Source: Candidatus Woesebacteria bacterium RIFCSPLOWO2_01_FULL_39_23
GTDB taxonomy: Bacteria > Patescibacteriota > Microgenomatia > UBA8517
DNA length: 48,805 nucleotides
Direction: 5' to 3'
Assembly (NCBI GenBank): GCA_001793095.1
Contig: MGHG01000016.1
Coordinates: 1 to 48,805, forward strand
Shown piece after piece: positions 9,661-35,980 of this stretch (its first letter is position 1; each line of letters opens with the position of its first letter). The translations under genes were made by a program, and so were the position numbers. The notes under the pieces were generated by a model. That model saw only the letters and a program-made list of their open reading frames with translations, ran no database searches and was not told the DNA's origin.

Positions 9661-10338
9661 TTACTTCTCCAGAATAAGATGTTTAATCTCGTCAAGTTTT
9701 CTTTGGTAGTCGGCTTGATTGTAAATAAAAGTTTTATAGCTTTCGATGTTTGTGAAGAAATTCATAATTAATTCTTTATTAGATATACTTGAAGTGGAGC
9801 CTTCTAAATATTCTGGAAAAGATGAATAGTGATAATCTTTCAGGTCTTCGGCATTATTTACAATGTGTGAACTGTAAGGATTAAGATGAATATAACGCTG
9901 AACATGTAAAAGTTGTTCTTCCGTTACTATTCTTACAGCTTTGAATTTTCCTTGATAAATTGGTCCCACTCTATCATTTTTGATGTTAAGATAACGCGTA
10001 TAACTATTTGAAATATTACTCATAAAAGAAGAGATTCCATTATCCCTTACTTGTTTCAGAAGTAGGTGTAGATGATTGGGCATCAAACAATATGCTAGTA
10101 TTTCTACTAAAAAATCGTCTTTTTTCTTAAATTGTTCTATAAGTTCTAATCTTCTCTGTTTCGGTAAACGAATAAAAAAAGAGTATCTTAGGGGTGGATA
10201 AGCGTGTTGATAATAAGATAAAGTAGCAATTTTCCGGTCATAATCTCTTTTATTTAAAAATATGGGTTGAGAAGCAATCCCTCTGTTAACGACATGGTAG
10301 ATTTCACCATTTACAAGCGGAACCTTTCTTCCTGGCAT
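9661..10338 (-). CDS. REP-associated tyrosine transposase (Y1_Tnp family)
   Basis: A single-strand HUH nuclease of the TnpA-REP/IS200-like superfamily. The N-terminus GEIYHVVNRGI is the typical first strand. The metal-binding HUH pair is in CLMPNHLHLLL (His-Leu-His). The catalytic tyrosine helix is SFMSNISNSYTRYLN, followed by GPIYQGKFKAVRI and HLNPYSS. At 225 residues it is full length and apparently intact. Such enzymes mobilise short palindromic REP elements. Here the gene is bracketed by palindromic inverted ends, and related two-armed palindromes occur at 30517 and 45736. Confidence 0.9.
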   Translation of the reverse strand: MPGRKVPLVNGEIYHVVNRGIASQPIFLNKRDYDRKIATLSYYQHAYPPLRYSFFIRLPKQRRLELIEQFKKKDDFLVEILAYCLMPNHLHLLLKQVRDNGISSFMSNISNSYTRYLNIKNDRVGPIYQGKFKAVRIVTEEQLLHVQRYIHLNPYSSHIVNNAEDLKDYHYSSFPEYLEGSTSSISNKELIMNFFTNIESYKTFIYNQADYQRKLDEIKHLILEK

Positions 10339-17084: not shown

Positions 17085-17831
17085 TCACTTCCTCTCCCTT
17101 CCTAGAGCAGATCCTTCCTCTAAACGCTTCTTCCACCAATACGTACCCACTTCAATAAGTGTTTCATAAGTCCCTGCGTCTTTCCAAAATCCATTCAACA
17201 TAGCCCAACCTAACTTATTATCATCTAAATAAGACTGATTTAAATCTGTAACCTCCAGCTCCCCTCTATCCGAAGGTTTTAACTTGCGAATTCTATCAAA
17301 GACTGACTTATCATAAAAATAAAGTCCGGTTATAGCAAAATTTGAATCGGGGCTGACTGGTTTTTCCGTCAGCTTGATGATTTTTCCTTCGTCATTAAAT
17401 GCAGGAACACCAAATCTCTGCGGATCCTCTACTTCTTTCAAAAATATTCTTGCACCTTCTTCAAAAGTAACTACATCTTTGTGAATATCTGCATCGGTAC
17501 AATTGTCTCCAAGTATTACGCACACATTCTCTCCATCAACATATTCCTCGGCTAAAGACAATGCTGCAGCGATCCCTCTTTCACCTTCCTGAACTGCATA
17601 AGCTAAATTATTCAGACCCAATTCTTTTCCATTTCTTAGCACCCTTAAAAAGTGGCCGGCGTGTGGTCCACCTGTAACAACCATTACATCTTTAATACCC
17701 GCTTGCACTAAAGTATTTATCGGATAAAAAATCATCGGTTTATCATAAACCGGGAGAAGATGTTTATTGGTAGCATAGGTAAGAGGATAAAGCCTCGTTC
17801 CAAGTCCACCGGCAAGGATCACACCCTTCAT
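17085..17831 (-). CDS. rmlA: Glucose-1-phosphate thymidylyltransferase, short type
   Basis: The nucleotidyltransferase signature GVILAGGLGTRLYPLTYATNKHLLPVYDKPM is at the N-terminus. VILGDNC holds the metal-binding Asp, and LTEKP and GLYFYD follow. It activates glucose-1-phosphate as dTDP-glucose, the first step to dTDP-rhamnose. At 248 residues it lacks the C-terminal allosteric extension of the 290-residue enzymes, as in the short archaeal/Gram-positive branch. A near-consensus promoter lies just upstream at 17841-17869. Confidence 0.9.
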   Translation of the reverse strand: MKGVILAGGLGTRLYPLTYATNKHLLPVYDKPMIFYPINTLVQAGIKDVMVVTGGPHAGHFLRVLRNGKELGLNNLAYAVQEGERGIAAALSLAEEYVDGENVCVILGDNCTDADIHKDVVTFEEGARIFLKEVEDPQRFGVPAFNDEGKIIKLTEKPVSPDSNFAITGLYFYDKSVFDRIRKLKPSDRGELEVTDLNQSYLDDNKLGWAMLNGFWKDAGTYETLIEVGTYWWKKRLEEGSALGRERK

Positions 17832-30557: not shown

Positions 30558-32405
30558 TTAATTAAACGTCTGCCCCGTATTTACCAGACCCTTAGTTTGA
30601 CCCACTGGACTTACCCAAACAAAATCAGGGTATTTATCACCAGCGCCCTGCAACTGCATACTCTGCCCAACTGCAACTGCTGGCTCTTCGTCAACTCCAA
30701 GATTGGTTGAAATCATGCCACTAGCAGGTCCATTACTGGCAATAAATGAACCTTCGTAGCTTAAAAATTGGATAACCTGGCTGCCAGGTGCAACAAGCGC
30801 CAGACCATCAGGTGCACCGTTTTGCAATCCGGGAGTACTAAACCATAAAGTACCGAAACCCGCCTGCTGATCGGGAATTACTCCTGAAAGTGCAATAACA
30901 CTATAGTACGCACCCCCTGAACCGTTGTAGAGTTTCAAATACCAACCGGACAAATTTGTCCCAGCCGGTCCGGCAATTTCTACCCCTTCTTCTGTGTCCG
31001 TACCAGCATTATCATAGTGGATTTCATTAATCCAAGGATCCGAAGGGGCTATTACACTAACTCCCAACACCTCGCCGTTAGTCGGATTTCCAGTGCACCT
31101 GAAGTCCGGATTATTTCTTGCCTGTTCAATGTAGAACTTTATAGTTTCATTCAAAATGTCGCTTTGTGCGTCATTTTGATTTCCCGTTCCATCGCAAGTA
31201 AATACTCCGCTTACTTCACTTAAATCACCGAAACACCACTGCAAACCAAGATATTTTGTAGTACTGGCTACAACCGGTGTTCCCGGTGGTTCTGCAATCG
31301 GGAAGTAATTCAGACTATCAAGCGTTCCCTGAGCAATCATCGATTCGGTTGGAGGTTCGTATACTCCGTCGTTATCGTCTCCCCAGATGAATACTTCCAA
31401 GTATTTCGAAAGTTCACCGTCTGGTCCTGCAACATCGGGGGGGCTTTCCGGTTCAAGCATGACATTTTCCAGGTCTTGCTTCTCCAAGAAAGTACACATC
31501 CATGCATTATTGTCATAGACATGGTATGAAAGCACATTTCTTCCATAATCTCCGGGTTTTACGTCGTGGAAATTCCAAATGAAATCTCCCTGACCCAGAT
31601 CCTTCAATTCCCAAAGCTTACACTGCTCTTCATTTAATGTGGTATTACAAACAACTTCCTTGACTGTTATGGCATCAAGAAATGTTCCATATGAATCAGC
31701 TGTTCCTAAGTCGGTAAAACGCAACTCGGTTGAACTGCCTGTCGCTGCAACATCTAGTTGCATGTATTGCCAGGCAATAGAACCGCCTCCACCGGCAACA
31801 GTACCACTGTCCCAGACAACATTACCACCCCATTTAACTTCAAGACGATTGTTGTTTGCTGGGGTGTTTGGTCGCGGTGCAAATGCGAATCGCAATTTGT
31901 AGTTATTTCCAGCTGTCGTTGGAATATTCTGGTAAATAGTAACCGACGCCGGTTCGTTATTCAGTCCTCCACTGGGACCATCCCAGTCTGAATCAAGTTC
32001 AACATATTGCTGTCCTTCGTAGGCTAAACCCAAAACTCCTCTATGATACTCAAGATTTGCTGGAGTAGGCCTATTGACACTATTGTAAGTAGCCGGAACA
32101 TCCGCTCGCCAATCTACATTCCATCCTCCTACCGGAGAAGGGTAGATATCCCAAAGTTGCGGAGTCGCGACAACTGGTGCCTCAAAACTAATATTATGAA
32201 CCAGATTTTCCTGTTCAACGCAGTCCCTTAAACAATCCTTCCCATTATATGAAGCCATCGTGTGATCAATTTTCAGGTCAATCGCTCCTGCCTGAAAAAG
32301 ATTACCTGTTGAAACTTCCCTATCGCTAAAAAATGCTTGCGATATACCGAATACAACACCAGCCACTAGCCCTAAAGTTAAAATACTTTCTAAAATTTTT
32401 TTAAT
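30558..32405 (-). CDS. TasA/camelysin-like surface protein with inserted lectin-like and C-terminal lamin-tail domains; apparent ATT start
   Basis: The SipW-type N-terminus reads KKILESILTLGLVAGVVFG, then ISQAFFSDREVSTGNLFQAG and AIDLKID. It aligns with the paralogue at 32585. The common-codon start (GTG 32366) would cut into the signal. The same frame opens at ATT 32405, 9 bases after AGGAGG, and I take that as the start (615 residues). A galactose-binding/DUF642-like sandwich (about 60-245; NISFEAP...YVELDSDWDGPSGG) is inserted inside the TasA-like domain, which resumes with NFHDVKPGDYGRNVLSYHVYDNNAW. A lamin-tail domain (WINEIHYDNAGTDTEEGVEI) ends it. NGEVLGVS precedes the last domain. Confidence 0.85.
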   Translation of the reverse strand: MKKILESILTLGLVAGVVFGISQAFFSDREVSTGNLFQAGAIDLKIDHTMASYNGKDCLRDCVEQENLVHNISFEAPVVATPQLWDIYPSPVGGWNVDWRADVPATYNSVNRPTPANLEYHRGVLGLAYEGQQYVELDSDWDGPSGGLNNEPASVTIYQNIPTTAGNNYKLRFAFAPRPNTPANNNRLEVKWGGNVVWDSGTVAGGGGSIAWQYMQLDVAATGSSTELRFTDLGTADSYGTFLDAITVKEVVCNTTLNEEQCKLWELKDLGQGDFIWNFHDVKPGDYGRNVLSYHVYDNNAWMCTFLEKQDLENVMLEPESPPDVAGPDGELSKYLEVFIWGDDNDGVYEPPTESMIAQGTLDSLNYFPIAEPPGTPVVASTTKYLGLQWCFGDLSEVSGVFTCDGTGNQNDAQSDILNETIKFYIEQARNNPDFRCTGNPTNGEVLGVSVIAPSDPWINEIHYDNAGTDTEEGVEIAGPAGTNLSGWYLKLYNGSGGAYYSVIALSGVIPDQQAGFGTLWFSTPGLQNGAPDGLALVAPGSQVIQFLSYEGSFIASNGPASGMISTNLGVDEEPAVAVGQSMQLQGAGDKYPDFVWVSPVGQTKGLVNTGQTFN

Positions 32406-32410
32406 ATTTT

Positions 32411-32584
32411 CTCACCTCCTCCCTGTTAGATAGGCTTTTTATCAAAAGCCATCTAACGGGATCCCATTTGATGGCGAAGCCTATCAAATTGGGACCTCCC
32501 AATTTTTATAGCTTAATAAAGCGATTCTCAATCCTTGACAAGGTCAGAACTTCTCTAACCTTGCCAAGGCGAGAGTTCAAAAAA
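32411..32584 (-). promoter_or_regulatory. Hairpin-array leader of the second TasA-like gene
   Basis: Between the two TasA-like genes the RNA has an upstream hairpin region (32527-32577). It then has module H2 (32463-32493; CCCAATTTGAT...ATCAAATGGG) and module H1 (32421-32460; CCCGTTAGAT...ATCTAACAGGG), followed directly by AGGAGGTGAG. GGGATCCC joins H1 and H2, and AATTGGGAGGTCCCAATT overlaps H2, so alternative pairings exist. Confidence 0.65.
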
Positions 32585-33742
32585 CTAAATATCCGTATCG
32601 TCGTAATGTATGTAAACATTACCTTCAAACAACCAAGTGCTGAAATCCGGTGGCCATACTACGACACTCTTTGTAGCATCGTCATATGCGGCATCAGGTA
32701 TCATCCAGATCTTGGCTCCAATAGCATAATTACCATCATTGACGTGCGGTAAATCCATACCCAAATTAACATTCCCCACCGATGTGATCAAATTACCCAA
32801 TCCATCTGTAGCGTGTTTACCAATTAACGCACCCGGATTATTCCCAGGCCAACCATCAGCATAATAAATCAAATCATAAGTAGTGTTAGCCGGTAATCCG
32901 TGTTCATCCAAGTTATAATCAAATGTAGAACCTGAACTGTTGTATGTCATATCGACATACATGCCGTCTTCAATAACCTCCCATGGCCTACCTACAACTT
33001 CACTCTCGTTTTCTAAACGAAGAGTATTGGTTGGAAATCCTTCTTGAACTGGACATACAAATCCCTCATTATTCCTGGATTGCACTGTGTAGAAGGATAT
33101 ATCCGCCATGTATTTATCAGTCTGAGCAACATTTCCAACTTCCTTTGGAAGTTTCCACTCAACCCCAAGACAATAAGTTACATCAGGATTTAAAGGTACT
33201 CTTCCGGTTTGAGAATCGGCTATTGCCCAACTTCTTGGAGTTATCGGACCTGATCCTTCGGTAAGGGGCGGTTCATTATCATCCTTGACGTTGTTACAGT
33301 TCAAATCTGCCCAAATCTTGAACTGCATATTTTGTGCCAATTCACCATCAAAGATGCTGTCTCCATCCGGTTCATCAACAATTAACTCCGGTTCAGTCGA
33401 ACCATTGTCGTCATTCAAGGTTGGATTTATGGTCACACAAGCCCAAGCTGGATTGTTATAGACATGGAGACTTATCGTTCCTTCACCAAAGTCGCCCGGT
33501 TTGACATCAGCAAGATTAAAGAACTTTTCAGTTTCAAGATCTTTAAGATCCCAATGCACATCAGGATGTCCATCAACGGCCTTATTATAATAGCCATCAT
33601 AATCAACCTTAAGGTCAATCGCACCGGCTTGAAAAGTATTTCCTCTTGATGTTTCTTCATCGGAGAAAAATGCTGAAGTTGCATAAACTGCAACGACCGC
33701 AACTACTCCGATTGAAAGAATACTTAATAAAACTTTTTTCAT
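32585..33742 (-). CDS. TasA/camelysin-like SipW-dependent surface protein, 385 aa
   Basis: It starts MKKVLLSILSIGVVAVVAVY, then ATSAFFSDEETSRGNTFQAG and AIDLKVD: the SipW-class signal (hydrophobic helix, AFFSDxE, then GNTFxAG). A TasA-type sandwich follows (NLADVKPGDFGEGTISLHVYNNPAWACV, with cysteines, and ADISFYTVQSRNNEGFVC). A separate beta domain (about 255-385) ends VYIHYDDTDI. In Bacilli such proteins are cut by SipW and assemble into extracellular fibres; that role is inferred here. It is the first gene of the operon leading to the signal peptidase. Its leader is highly structured. Confidence 0.85.
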   Translation of the reverse strand: MKKVLLSILSIGVVAVVAVYATSAFFSDEETSRGNTFQAGAIDLKVDYDGYYNKAVDGHPDVHWDLKDLETEKFFNLADVKPGDFGEGTISLHVYNNPAWACVTINPTLNDDNGSTEPELIVDEPDGDSIFDGELAQNMQFKIWADLNCNNVKDDNEPPLTEGSGPITPRSWAIADSQTGRVPLNPDVTYCLGVEWKLPKEVGNVAQTDKYMADISFYTVQSRNNEGFVCPVQEGFPTNTLRLENESEVVGRPWEVIEDGMYVDMTYNSSGSTFDYNLDEHGLPANTTYDLIYYADGWPGNNPGALIGKHATDGLGNLITSVGNVNLGMDLPHVNDGNYAIGAKIWMIPDAAYDDATKSVVVWPPDFSTWLFEGNVYIHYDDTDI

Positions 33743-34020
33743 AAATTATTTCTTTTTCACCTCCTTTCTGCTTTGCAGAAAGGAGGTTTGTCGGATATCG
33801 TTTATAGGGACTATCTAACTAGCAACCAATCTGCTTAAATATTTAAGGGTTTTACCCCTTATTCGATTAGTCTTTTCCAGAAACTAATATTTAAAGGGTA
33901 AACAAAATACTTCGAATCACCCTCCTTATTTCCGCACTCGACTCTTGGGAATTATTCATTCACGTCTCGTGCCGAAATTTATCGGAGGGTAGTTGATTAT
34001 TAATATTTTTTAAAGGACAA
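33743..34020 (-). ncRNA. Structured leader RNA of the TasA-like operon
   Basis: Four layers are visible. (1) ACCCTCC with GGAGGGT (33984-33990 with 33919-33925 in plus coordinates) encloses about 58 bases with inner pairings. (2) A possible H-type pseudoknot: 33851-33857 (TTTACCC) with 33896-33902 (GGGTAAA), and 33861-33866 (ATTCGA) with 33912-33917 (TCGAAT), around a small hairpin. (3) The 14-base palindrome CTTAAATATTTAAG (33834-33847), next to a local hairpin that would compete with the pseudoknot. (4) A perfect 13-bp hairpin (33759-33771 with 33775-33787) that buries the AGGAGGTGA ribosome site. This suggests translation is off by default and released by a signal. Confidence 0.6.
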
Positions 34021-34021
34021 C

Positions 34022-34055
34022 AAAAAACAAAAAACCGAACACAGTGTGTTCGGTT
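34022..34055 (-). terminator. Intrinsic terminator (or attenuator) ahead of the TasA-like operon
   Basis: On the minus strand AACCGAACACA pairs with TGTGTTCGGTT, followed by TTTTTTG and another T-run. This is the clearest terminator in the window. It separates the sortase/107-aa gene transcript and a pair of tandem promoters from the structured leader. Confidence 0.85.
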
Positions 34056-34286
34056 ACGACAAGAAACATGTATTGTCTTTGCAACAACTAAAATCCATTT
34101 AATTAAGGAAGGTTCACTTGGGGCAGTACAGGTGATTTACACATTTTGAATATTGCTATAGGAATTGTCAAGAAGCAATTTCAGGCTATATTTCCATACT
34201 ACAAGGAGAATAGTTACTGTATATTTATATTTCTGTCAAAAAGCAATTCCACAATTTCTTAGAAGATATTTACTTTTGAGATTTGG
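34056..34286 (-). promoter_or_regulatory. Tandem promoters upstream of the terminator
   Basis: Two direct repeats (34164-34181 and 34232-34249, about 14 of 18 identical) each contain TTGACA on the minus strand. They are followed after 17 bases by CAAAAT and TAACTA. Transcripts from here would meet the terminator after 80-180 bases, giving a small RNA or an attenuated operon mRNA. No ORF is seen. This and the leader make up the only gap above 300 bases in the window. Confidence 0.45.
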
Positions 34287-34610
34287 TTAGTCCTTTAACA
34301 TTTCCCGTAAAGTTTCATCCTGAATCATTATTACCGCACGAAGCTGAGCCAAAGATAAATTATTAAGTAAAACTCCGACTTTAGCTAATTTTTTTTCTTC
34401 GTTATCCTCATGGATATTAAAAATTTCCTCGGTTATTCTTATAAGTTTAGGATCTTTCGAAAATTTTCGTACTACATCAATATTAATCCCGCCAGTTCTA
34501 TCAAGTTCATTTATAGATCTGTCTAATTGCATTAAATCTAACTTTATTTTCACAGCCAATGCAACTCCTCTAATTTCATTACCAATTAAATTTAAAAACT
34601 CTCTCGCCAC
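34287..34610 (-). CDS. Small helical hypothetical protein, 107 aa
   Basis: Unrecognised. Charged helical protein (VRKFSKDPKLIRITEEIFNI, then LLNNLSLAQLRAVIMIQ), no membrane segment. It lies 84 bases downstream of the second sortase on the same strand and before the terminator at 34022. Confidence 0.55.
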   Translation of the reverse strand: MAREFLNLIGNEIRGVALAVKIKLDLMQLDRSINELDRTGGINIDVVRKFSKDPKLIRITEEIFNIHEDNEEKKLAKVGVLLNNLSLAQLRAVIMIQDETLREMLKD

Positions 34611-34694
34611 AGTTTGTATTATACACTACTGCCTATAGTAATTGAAGTTTATGGCTCTTTATAATTGGGTGATATACTCAAACTGTGGATAGGG

Positions 34695-35336
34695 TCATAT
34701 TCTTTTCGCACTAACAATCAAGCGCTTGGAGTCGTTGAAACCGGAACAGGTATATAGCGTTAAGGTTTCATCCTCAGTTGGTTTAATCACTTCAACTTGT
34801 GAAGGAAATACTTCTTTAATTTCAGTAACAAGATAAGACAATTCCTGGTCGCGGGTGACAACATTGACTCTCATACCCACTTTTGCCTTTTTCAAAGGCA
34901 GAAAAAGGCCGGGTCTCGCGTGAGCAAAGATAACCTGATTACCCGGATATCCCGGAAGAGCGGAGCCGATACCAAAAGATGCAACATCGGGGTACACTTC
35001 CCACCTCCCCTCAAGCACTTTTGCCGGCCTGACAACTAAGTCGATTGCCAAGTCGGGAATCTTAACGCCCACCGGTGCAAGCTCTTCCCTATACACACCA
35101 ATAGTCACATCACCAGAGGGCTTTATCGGTTCTTGCGAACCTAAATACTGATTATCTGGTGTATATATTAAGGAAGCCACTTTATCAACAACAGGATTAT
35201 AGAAGTAGCCTAAACCCACTAAAACCAAGCCTATGGATATGAAAAAAAAGCCAATTAACCTTCTCTTACGATATACTTTAAACCTAAAGTTTTCGAACCT
35301 AATAGTATTAAGGCTATTCCTACTCCAACTATCCAT
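34695..35336 (-). CDS. Second sortase (class D/E-like)
   Basis: The first 25 residues are basic and cytoplasmic, followed by a membrane helix (LIGFFFISIGLVLVGLGYF). The barrel has His139 in VIFAHARPG, Cys197 in LTLYTCSGF and Arg205 in SKRLIVSAK. LPGYPGNQV is typical of class E/D. The ATG at 35336 lies 82 bases inside the upstream gene, an unusually long overlap. It probably anchors the 175-residue protein encoded just upstream, or other LPxTG-free surface proteins of the island. Confidence 0.9.
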   Translation of the reverse strand: MDSWSRNSLNTIRFENFRFKVYRKRRLIGFFFISIGLVLVGLGYFYNPVVDKVASLIYTPDNQYLGSQEPIKPSGDVTIGVYREELAPVGVKIPDLAIDLVVRPAKVLEGRWEVYPDVASFGIGSALPGYPGNQVIFAHARPGLFLPLKKAKVGMRVNVVTRDQELSYLVTEIKEVFPSQVEVIKPTEDETLTLYTCSGFNDSKRLIVSAKRI

Positions 35337-35782
35337 AGATTATCTATTTTACCAGATGACGTGGCCGATAAGCCCATTACTTCGCCTCCACCTGTTGATG
35401 ACGACCCACCATTTCCACCACTACTACTGCTGCCACTCGGACTAGTTCCTCCGATCCCCGGGGCTGTAGTTGGGGTCGGTGTAGGAGTTGCTGTAGGTTC
35501 CGAACCTGTTGGCTCAGTTGTGGGCACATTTGTTGGAGCGGGTGATACTGTCGGCTCCTGGGAAAAATCATCGTCTCCGGGAAGCGGGGGGTATTCCGGT
35601 TGGTCCGGAAAAACCGGTTGGTCCGGAAACTGCGGCTGATCTGGGAATTGTGGTTGGTTCGGCATGTTTGGCGAACCCGGTATTTGCGGGAAAGATATTG
35701 CATATGCTCTTGCCACGCTAAAAAGTCCCAGTAGCACAAATACGGATACCAAAACCATTATGTAACCAGTTTTCGATTTCAT
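35255..35782 (-). CDS. Small secreted Pro-rich anchored protein, 175 aa
   Basis: A signal peptide (about 1-29) is followed by a P/Q/F repeat (PQFPDQ, PQFPDQ, PVFPDQ, PEYPP), a PT-rich stretch, a Gly/Ser run, and then GEVMGLSATSSGKIDN ahead of a C-terminal helix and a short basic tail. The GEVMGLS site resembles the EVLG motifs of neighbouring proteins and may be a sorting or processing signal. It overlaps the sortase start by 82 bases. Its leader holds four hairpin modules and an AGGAGGTGA ribosome site. Confidence 0.75.
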   Translation of the reverse strand: MKSKTGYIMVLVSVFVLLGLFSVARAYAISFPQIPGSPNMPNQPQFPDQPQFPDQPVFPDQPEYPPLPGDDDFSQEPTVSPAPTNVPTTEPTGSEPTATPTPTPTTAPGIGGTSPSGSSSSGGNGGSSSTGGGEVMGLSATSSGKIDNLWIVGVGIALILLGSKTLGLKYIVREG

Positions 35783-35790
35783 TTAGAGTT

Positions 35791-35950
35791 TCACCTCCTC
35801 TCCCAATTAGATAGTCGCCTGAAGCGACATCTCATGGGATCACGATAGATGTGCGAAGCACTATCTAACTGTGACCTTTCCAAATGAGATAAGCCCTTCG
35901 GGCTATCTCATGGGATCCCGTCCCGTTAGATAATTTAATATCTCATGGGA
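35791..35950 (-). promoter_or_regulatory. Four-hairpin leader of the Pro-rich protein and sortase operon
   Basis: Four hairpins occupy 35802-35838, 35838-35875, 35880-35913 and 35922-35949, ending at the ribosome site GAGGAGGTGA. Each has an outer arm of the type CCCATGAGAT/ATCTAAYGGG and a variable GC-rich inner stem (GTCGC/GCGAC, GTGC/GCAC, GCCC/GGGC) capped by TTC, GAA or TTCAG. GATCCC/GGGATC joins them. The outer arm varies with compensation between modules. Confidence 0.7.
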
Positions 35951-35980
35951 CTTGTGACTTTCAGATATTGGGCAAGTTAG

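Follow-up and report, generated by a model that had tools for sequence, protein, structure and literature searches.

A short two-hairpin palindrome, probably mobile and REPIN-like, often lies directly before ribosome-binding sites in one family of Woesebacteria

The window analysed here is the whole stretch of 48,805 nucleotides from contig MGHG01000016.1 of Candidatus Woesebacteria bacterium RIFCSPLOWO2_01_FULL_39_23, in which two gene leaders carry repeated hairpins. The repeated unit, two inverted hairpins of about 75 nt, is probably a short mobile palindrome similar to a REPIN (a doublet of repetitive extragenic palindromic (REP) sequences forming hairpins). It is probably not an RNA devoted to the control of surface genes, because copies stand before many unrelated genes, in a DNA ligase gene, in RNase P RNA and beside riboswitches. 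Purine-rich tracts, for the most part Shine-Dalgarno (SD) sequences, begin right at the 3' end of the element, and related genomes have the same sites without it.

Six hairpins with shared arms had been proposed in the two leaders, and all six are present. They lie on the minus strand, which is the mRNA strand, at 32420-32496 and 35801-35952 and make up three copies of one two-hairpin unit of 70-80 nt. Each hairpin has a CCC/GGG outer stem, a 7-bp middle stem and an inner stem free to vary. The first hairpin (HP1) has single-base bulges on the 5' arm (CCC-A-GTTAGAT-A-Gnn..nnC-ATCTAAC-GGG) and the second (HP2) has them on the 3' arm (CCC-GTGAGAT-Gnn..nnC-T-ATCTCAC-A/T-GGG), so the unit is an inverted pair of hairpins with mirrored bulges. 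It is nearly its own reverse complement, and its inner stems and loops are not conserved between copies. Among six genomic copies, 95.8% of the cells pair, 14 of the 28 pairs show two-sided changes, and the covariation score was 0.502 against 0.164 in shuffles, while slid controls pair only to about 35-43%; pairing and covariation are therefore far beyond chance. The compensatory changes are confined within each hairpin, such as TTGAGT/ACTCAA in HP1 of locus L005 and ATTTGAT/ATCAAAT in hairpin b1 of the window, and long-range pairing between the hairpins (arm 1 with 4, arm 2 with 3) was excluded on this ground.

A covariance model, R1, was built from unit copies including copies B and A2 of the window. 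Copy B (32420-32496, minus strand; HP1 at about 32462-32494 and HP2 at about 32421-32461 by folding) lies in the leader of a TasA-like gene and scored 86 bits (E 1.1e-16 on its own genome). Copy A2 (35801-35876, minus strand) lies in the leader of a proline-rich surface-type gene and scored 85.2 bits (E 1.7e-16), and 5' of it stands a degenerate tandem unit, A1 (35879-35952, minus strand), which was outside the training set and scored 36.9 bits (E 2.3e-5). The last hairpin had been said to end next to the GGAGGTGA site, and indeed both leaders end 0-2 nt before this ribosome-binding site: the SD sequence GGAGGTGAG (32411-32419, minus strand) follows copy B immediately and GGAGGTGA (35791-35798, minus strand) starts 2 nt past copy A2. 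The half module reported at 33811-33819 has to be withdrawn. This isolated minus-strand match to GTTAGATAG, merely 9-14 nt long, forms no hairpin, has no R1 match and may be chance or a remnant. No Rfam leader RNA or riboswitch family matched at gathering score within the window.

In the genome under study (G000; 1.13 Mb, 18 contigs), R1 found about 15 loci, most of them matched on the two strands alike, since the unit reads almost the same on either. The 56 relatives comprised 33 family members, 11 of them positive, and 23 further genomes without a match; among 57 genomes of the order there were again 11 positives, all within the family. Wider scans, covering 281 genomes at class level and 379 at phylum level with stricter filters by which weak copies were missed, gave one further positive, G103, in a different family. 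The genomes are mostly fragmented metagenome assemblies. The spread of the element is thus patchy, with copies scattered through a single Woesebacteria family. There was no match on plasmids; pattern scans of viral contigs matched three, two of them at about chance level by estimate. One phage contig of 13 kb (L274, IMGVR_UViG_3300031369_000089) has a hairpin series of its own, about seven single hairpins of the form CCCCGTGAGATGG..CCTATCTCA.GGGG, several shortly upstream of the start regions of small open reading frames (ORFs). The element's host genomes also contain further scattered families of GC-rich palindromic repeats (GAGGCCTCCGGCCCGTGAGGGCCTCC; CCTTCGCCAAGGCTTCGGAAGG), again in part close to SD sequences, as at L010, L034 and L045 (GGAGGCCTCCGGCC..) and in the rplL leaders of L296 and L303. 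For Patescibacteria our literature search gave nothing on palindromic elements, and for Woesebacteria nothing on riboswitches.

The flanks of about 67 copies were read, and about 36 of these copies end no more than 3 nt from a SD sequence of the GAGGTGA type with its start codon; of the six copies read in G103, two are of this kind. The genes behind these leader copies, named by sequence inspection with family searches for the window genes only, include rplL (G028, G016), rpoA (G009, G014), atpE (G031, G060), a small EF-like protein gene in four genera, and genes for TasA-like, cupredoxin, DUF305-type, Hsp20, RRM, LemA, glutaredoxin and response regulator proteins. They share no common pathway or single regulon, and the earlier description of the targets as surface genes was too narrow. 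The original prediction had also asked whether hits of a covariance model would be confined to 5' leaders; they are not, and random intergenic spread was also not seen, with about half of the copies abutting SD sequences.

The remaining contexts are diverse. In G000 one copy lies in frame within a variable loop of the ATP-dependent DNA ligase, where it adds SQIDSSFRASNGTQLNAQSAIQSG (about 25 residues); most relatives lack this insert, and the copy adjoins GAGGTAAAG, a purine tract which is not a ribosome-binding site. G000 and G004 have copies within their RNase P RNA (Rfam E 2e-23 and 2e-25, respectively), and that of G016 probably also holds one, as read from the sequence. At four loci the element adjoins cobalamin riboswitches (with Rfam support for locus L068, weaker for L056), and these Rfam matches, like those of RNase P, are host RNAs beside or around the element. 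Further copies are found at the 5' end of the tmRNA in G016, upstream of mreB, and behind trxA and sod. As a side observation, a different two-hairpin palindrome in G031 (L183, G031:C14:37600-39000, about base 480-600) encodes the peptide SHPEFISGSKILKRVQDDRS in frame in the same ligase loop. Another copy lies shortly past a LAGLIDADG-like ORF downstream of a 16S rRNA gene (L271 at about 17285-17758; L029, 1501-1578), possibly in an rRNA intron or spacer.

Evidence of insertion comes from the EF-like gene, located after ruvC. Its ribosome-binding site touches or overlaps the ruvC end in about 20 relatives, while in G000, G009, G014 and G016 a 75-nt unit stands between the two genes, exactly 5' of the ribosome-binding site. 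In a tree of ligase and EF-like proteins, G000 groups with G017 and G031, and G016 with G005, G024 and G020, all of these partners being without the unit at this site; G009 and G014 are sisters. Lineages without the unit separate the carriers in this tree, so that three or more insertions at a single position, or else several precise losses, would be needed. The four copies at this site have no inner-stem sequence in common. At rplL, the unit is present only in G028 and G016 among 30 leaders read. Outside leaders, the 4-6 bases next to HP2 are 69% purine, against 53-57% at the opposite end of the unit, in a small sample whose orientation was set by model score. This bias, together with the ligase copy at GAGGTAAAG, supports, within that small sample, an oriented joining 5' of purine tracts, mostly SD sequences.

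On the sense strand, leaders maintained as RNA are expected to show more G.U pairs than A.C mismatches. Of the 876 pairs in 32 leader copies, 808 are Watson-Crick, with 20 G.U against 22 A.C, and a 3:1 ratio of G.U to A.C would be rejected (p about 1e-4). The folding energy is -33.0 kcal/mol for the sense and -33.1 kcal/mol for the antisense strand (p 0.68). Because there is no G.U excess and the energies are equal, pairing is maintained irrespective of strand, as expected of a palindrome in DNA or of an intermediate that folds as a single strand, and the covariation of the unit is therefore no proof of selection at the RNA level. REPINs also show compensatory changes (PMC3116915). As a caution, strong covariation among paralogous leader hairpins need not indicate a riboregulator, since palindromes maintained at the DNA level yield the same; counting G.U against A.C helps to separate the two.

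We infer that the element would move as folded single-stranded DNA recognised by an enzyme of the HUH/Y1 type, with the bulged bases as putative marks for this enzyme and a target located beside HP2; the arms would then stay complementary at the DNA level. Leader copies would be transcribed as a pair of hairpins just 5' of the ribosome-binding site, with translation presumably still working. There they may insulate this site, preventing its sequestration by upstream sequence, or may stabilise and protect the message, and this might account for the repeated retention before rplL, rpoA, atpE and the EF-like gene; as a hypothesis, the recurrence before genes needing high translation fits such a role. 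Unrelated palindromes at the same rplL site (G000, G005) and in the ligase loop (G031) argue that structure or site counts more than sequence. A bolder and rather doubtful extension is that the insertion machinery recognises the SD sequence itself (as its complement in single-stranded DNA), placing a portable hairpin insulator before genes lineage-wide, with retention favoured where high translation is needed.

Several points weigh against a mobile element. No enzyme is tied to it: the Y1 transposase genes in G000 and the relatives examined are flanked by other hairpins, and R1 had no match near the three of G000. Y1 genes do correlate with the element within the family (8 of 11 carriers versus 5 of 22, p 0.009), but in a comparison that ignores relatedness. 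No short target-site duplication was identified at the copies, the purine preference outside ribosome-binding sites is modest with orientation there set by model score, and recurrence at rplL, atpE and EF-like genes could reflect functional selection. The three Y1 genes, which are single-copy and like RAYT (REP-associated tyrosine transposase) genes, lie in the window at 9661-10338 (minus strand) and at L088 and L090. Each is bordered by its own short hairpins (e.g. TCACCTTAGAGGTGAA), unrelated to the element, and they were dismissed as the source of the leader hairpins for their different flanking hairpins. An autonomous partner was sought on the element-rich contig C2, and in the part read (L271) no transposase-like ORF was seen by eye.

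Palindromic repeats without any target preference might simply survive where they are least harmful, the gap 5' of the ribosome-binding site being a rare tolerated place in streamlined genomes. That some sites accept palindromes generally, as the unrelated ones 5' of rplL and in the ligase loop suggest, speaks for this, yet we regard it as rather unlikely in view of the zero-offset placement of copy B despite free intergenic sequence, the insertions that different lineages show in parallel at one and the same nucleotide and the purine bias on one side only. Horizontal replacement of gene segments is less probable again. Here an incoming allele with the element would recombine by homology on one side and join illegitimately at the element end, so that the element marks the 3' join; the second 3' ends of trxA and sod, which start exactly at the 3' boundary of the element, are in its favour, but it is clear in just 2 of about 67 copies and a very long target duplication could look alike. 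The sequences concerned are a diverged second gene 3' end of 31 nt, about 80% identical, at trxA of G017 (L045, about 1501-1567) and one of 40 nt at sod of G014 (L053, about 1501-1570); a decayed second copy of a gene 3' end is seemingly also present in G000 (L034).

Of the two readings offered by the original prediction, the self-copying palindrome gained from the copies in an ORF, in or beside structured RNAs and behind genes and from the empty sites in sister genera, while the modular leader RNA lost with the missing G.U excess, sense bias and regulon. The latter, in which a protein or ligand would bind the hairpin pair so that a regulon is controlled at translation, the non-leader copies being incidental, is unlikely: about half of the copies do lie 0-3 nt from a ribosome-binding site in one orientation, covariation is strong and highly expressed or stoichiometric genes recur (rplL, rpoA, atpE, EF-like, TasA-like), but it does not agree with copies in the ligase ORF, RNase P RNA, riboswitch flanks and tmRNA, with strand-blind pairing and folding, with leader genes of no shared pathway that lack the element in most relatives, or with the unconserved inner stems and loops.

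The gene after copy B (30558-32405, minus strand; translation IKKILESILTLGLVAGVVFGISQAFFSDRE) encodes a TasA/camelysin-like secreted protein with only a weak DUF642 match. Its start is probably ATT at 32405-32403 and not GTG at 32366; the ATT has good spacing after GGAGGTGA, and a start at GTG would truncate the signal peptide. The gene after copy A2 (35255-35782, minus strand) encodes a proline/serine-rich surface-type protein without Pfam match, and adjoins a sortase gene (34695-35336; Sortase PF04203, E 1.3e-19). A second TasA-like gene (32585-33742, minus strand) has as its SD sequence the 3' arm of a perfect 13-bp hairpin at 33759-33787 (ACCTCCTTTCTGC AAA GCAGAAAGGAGGT), which would mask the SD in RNA.

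Among known systems, an integron attC site was considered for the RYYYAAC/GTTRRRY resemblance and discarded, since there is no fixed AAC/GTT triplet and the middle arms vary (GTGAGAT, GTGAAGT, ATTTGAT). The nearest relatives in form are REPINs, or REP dimers (bacterial interspersed mosaic elements, BIMEs), which are mobilised by RAYT (TnpA-REP) transposases (Bertels and Rainey 2011, PMC3116915; Di Nocera 2013, PMC3733652). The present element is likewise an inverted doublet of imperfect palindromes with stem irregularities and compensatory changes, mainly extragenic, dispersed and multi-copy, with some intragenic copies and a patchy distribution. The REP transposase relies on irregularities of the single strand, among them a bulge and a GTAG tag (PMC8266576), and intragenic REP copies occur occasionally, with a ligase gene case reported in O. 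terrae (PMC3116915, PMC3733652). In our flank listings no recurrent unpaired tag of the GTAG (or CGTC) kind was found at either foot, and no cognate RAYT flanked by the same repeat was found, the Y1 genes carrying other hairpins. Because the tag is absent and the examined Y1 genes have different flanking hairpins, the element cannot be filed as a RAYT-dependent REPIN. It also differs in its few copies per genome and in lying in or beside functional RNAs, and while REPs are biased to positions downstream of ORFs (PMC3733652), it abuts ribosome-binding sites 5' of genes.

Rickettsia palindromic elements (RPE; reviewed in PMC10969869) offer another likeness, a palindrome in frame within a conserved protein gene, of which the ligase is the one clear case here, most copies being non-coding. 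The present element differs from RPE in being shorter, two-hairpin, of other sequence, mostly at ribosome-binding sites and in an unrelated host. Minimal IS200/IS605 derivatives (PATE-like) have left-end and right-end hairpins with extrahelical bases and insert in an oriented way beside a preferred short target. The element shares these traits, but no autonomous partner sharing its ends was found, and its inner stems are long and variable. Recognition of such hairpins is discussed in PMC8266576. The leader copies have a further counterpart of another kind. Stabilising or insulating hairpins of bacterial 5' untranslated regions (UTRs) lie directly upstream of the SD sequence; the leader copies occupy the same position and may work alike, but these hairpins are not an element-specific family. 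What sets the present case apart is that REP-like palindromes are usually behind genes, and here a REPIN-like repeat stands 5' of genes with no gap to the ribosome-binding site, as well as within or next to functional RNAs, in the small streamlined genomes of Patescibacteria. If the target is the SD sequence, the element would exploit the one motif common to most genes and would be a natural source of 5' UTR hairpins.

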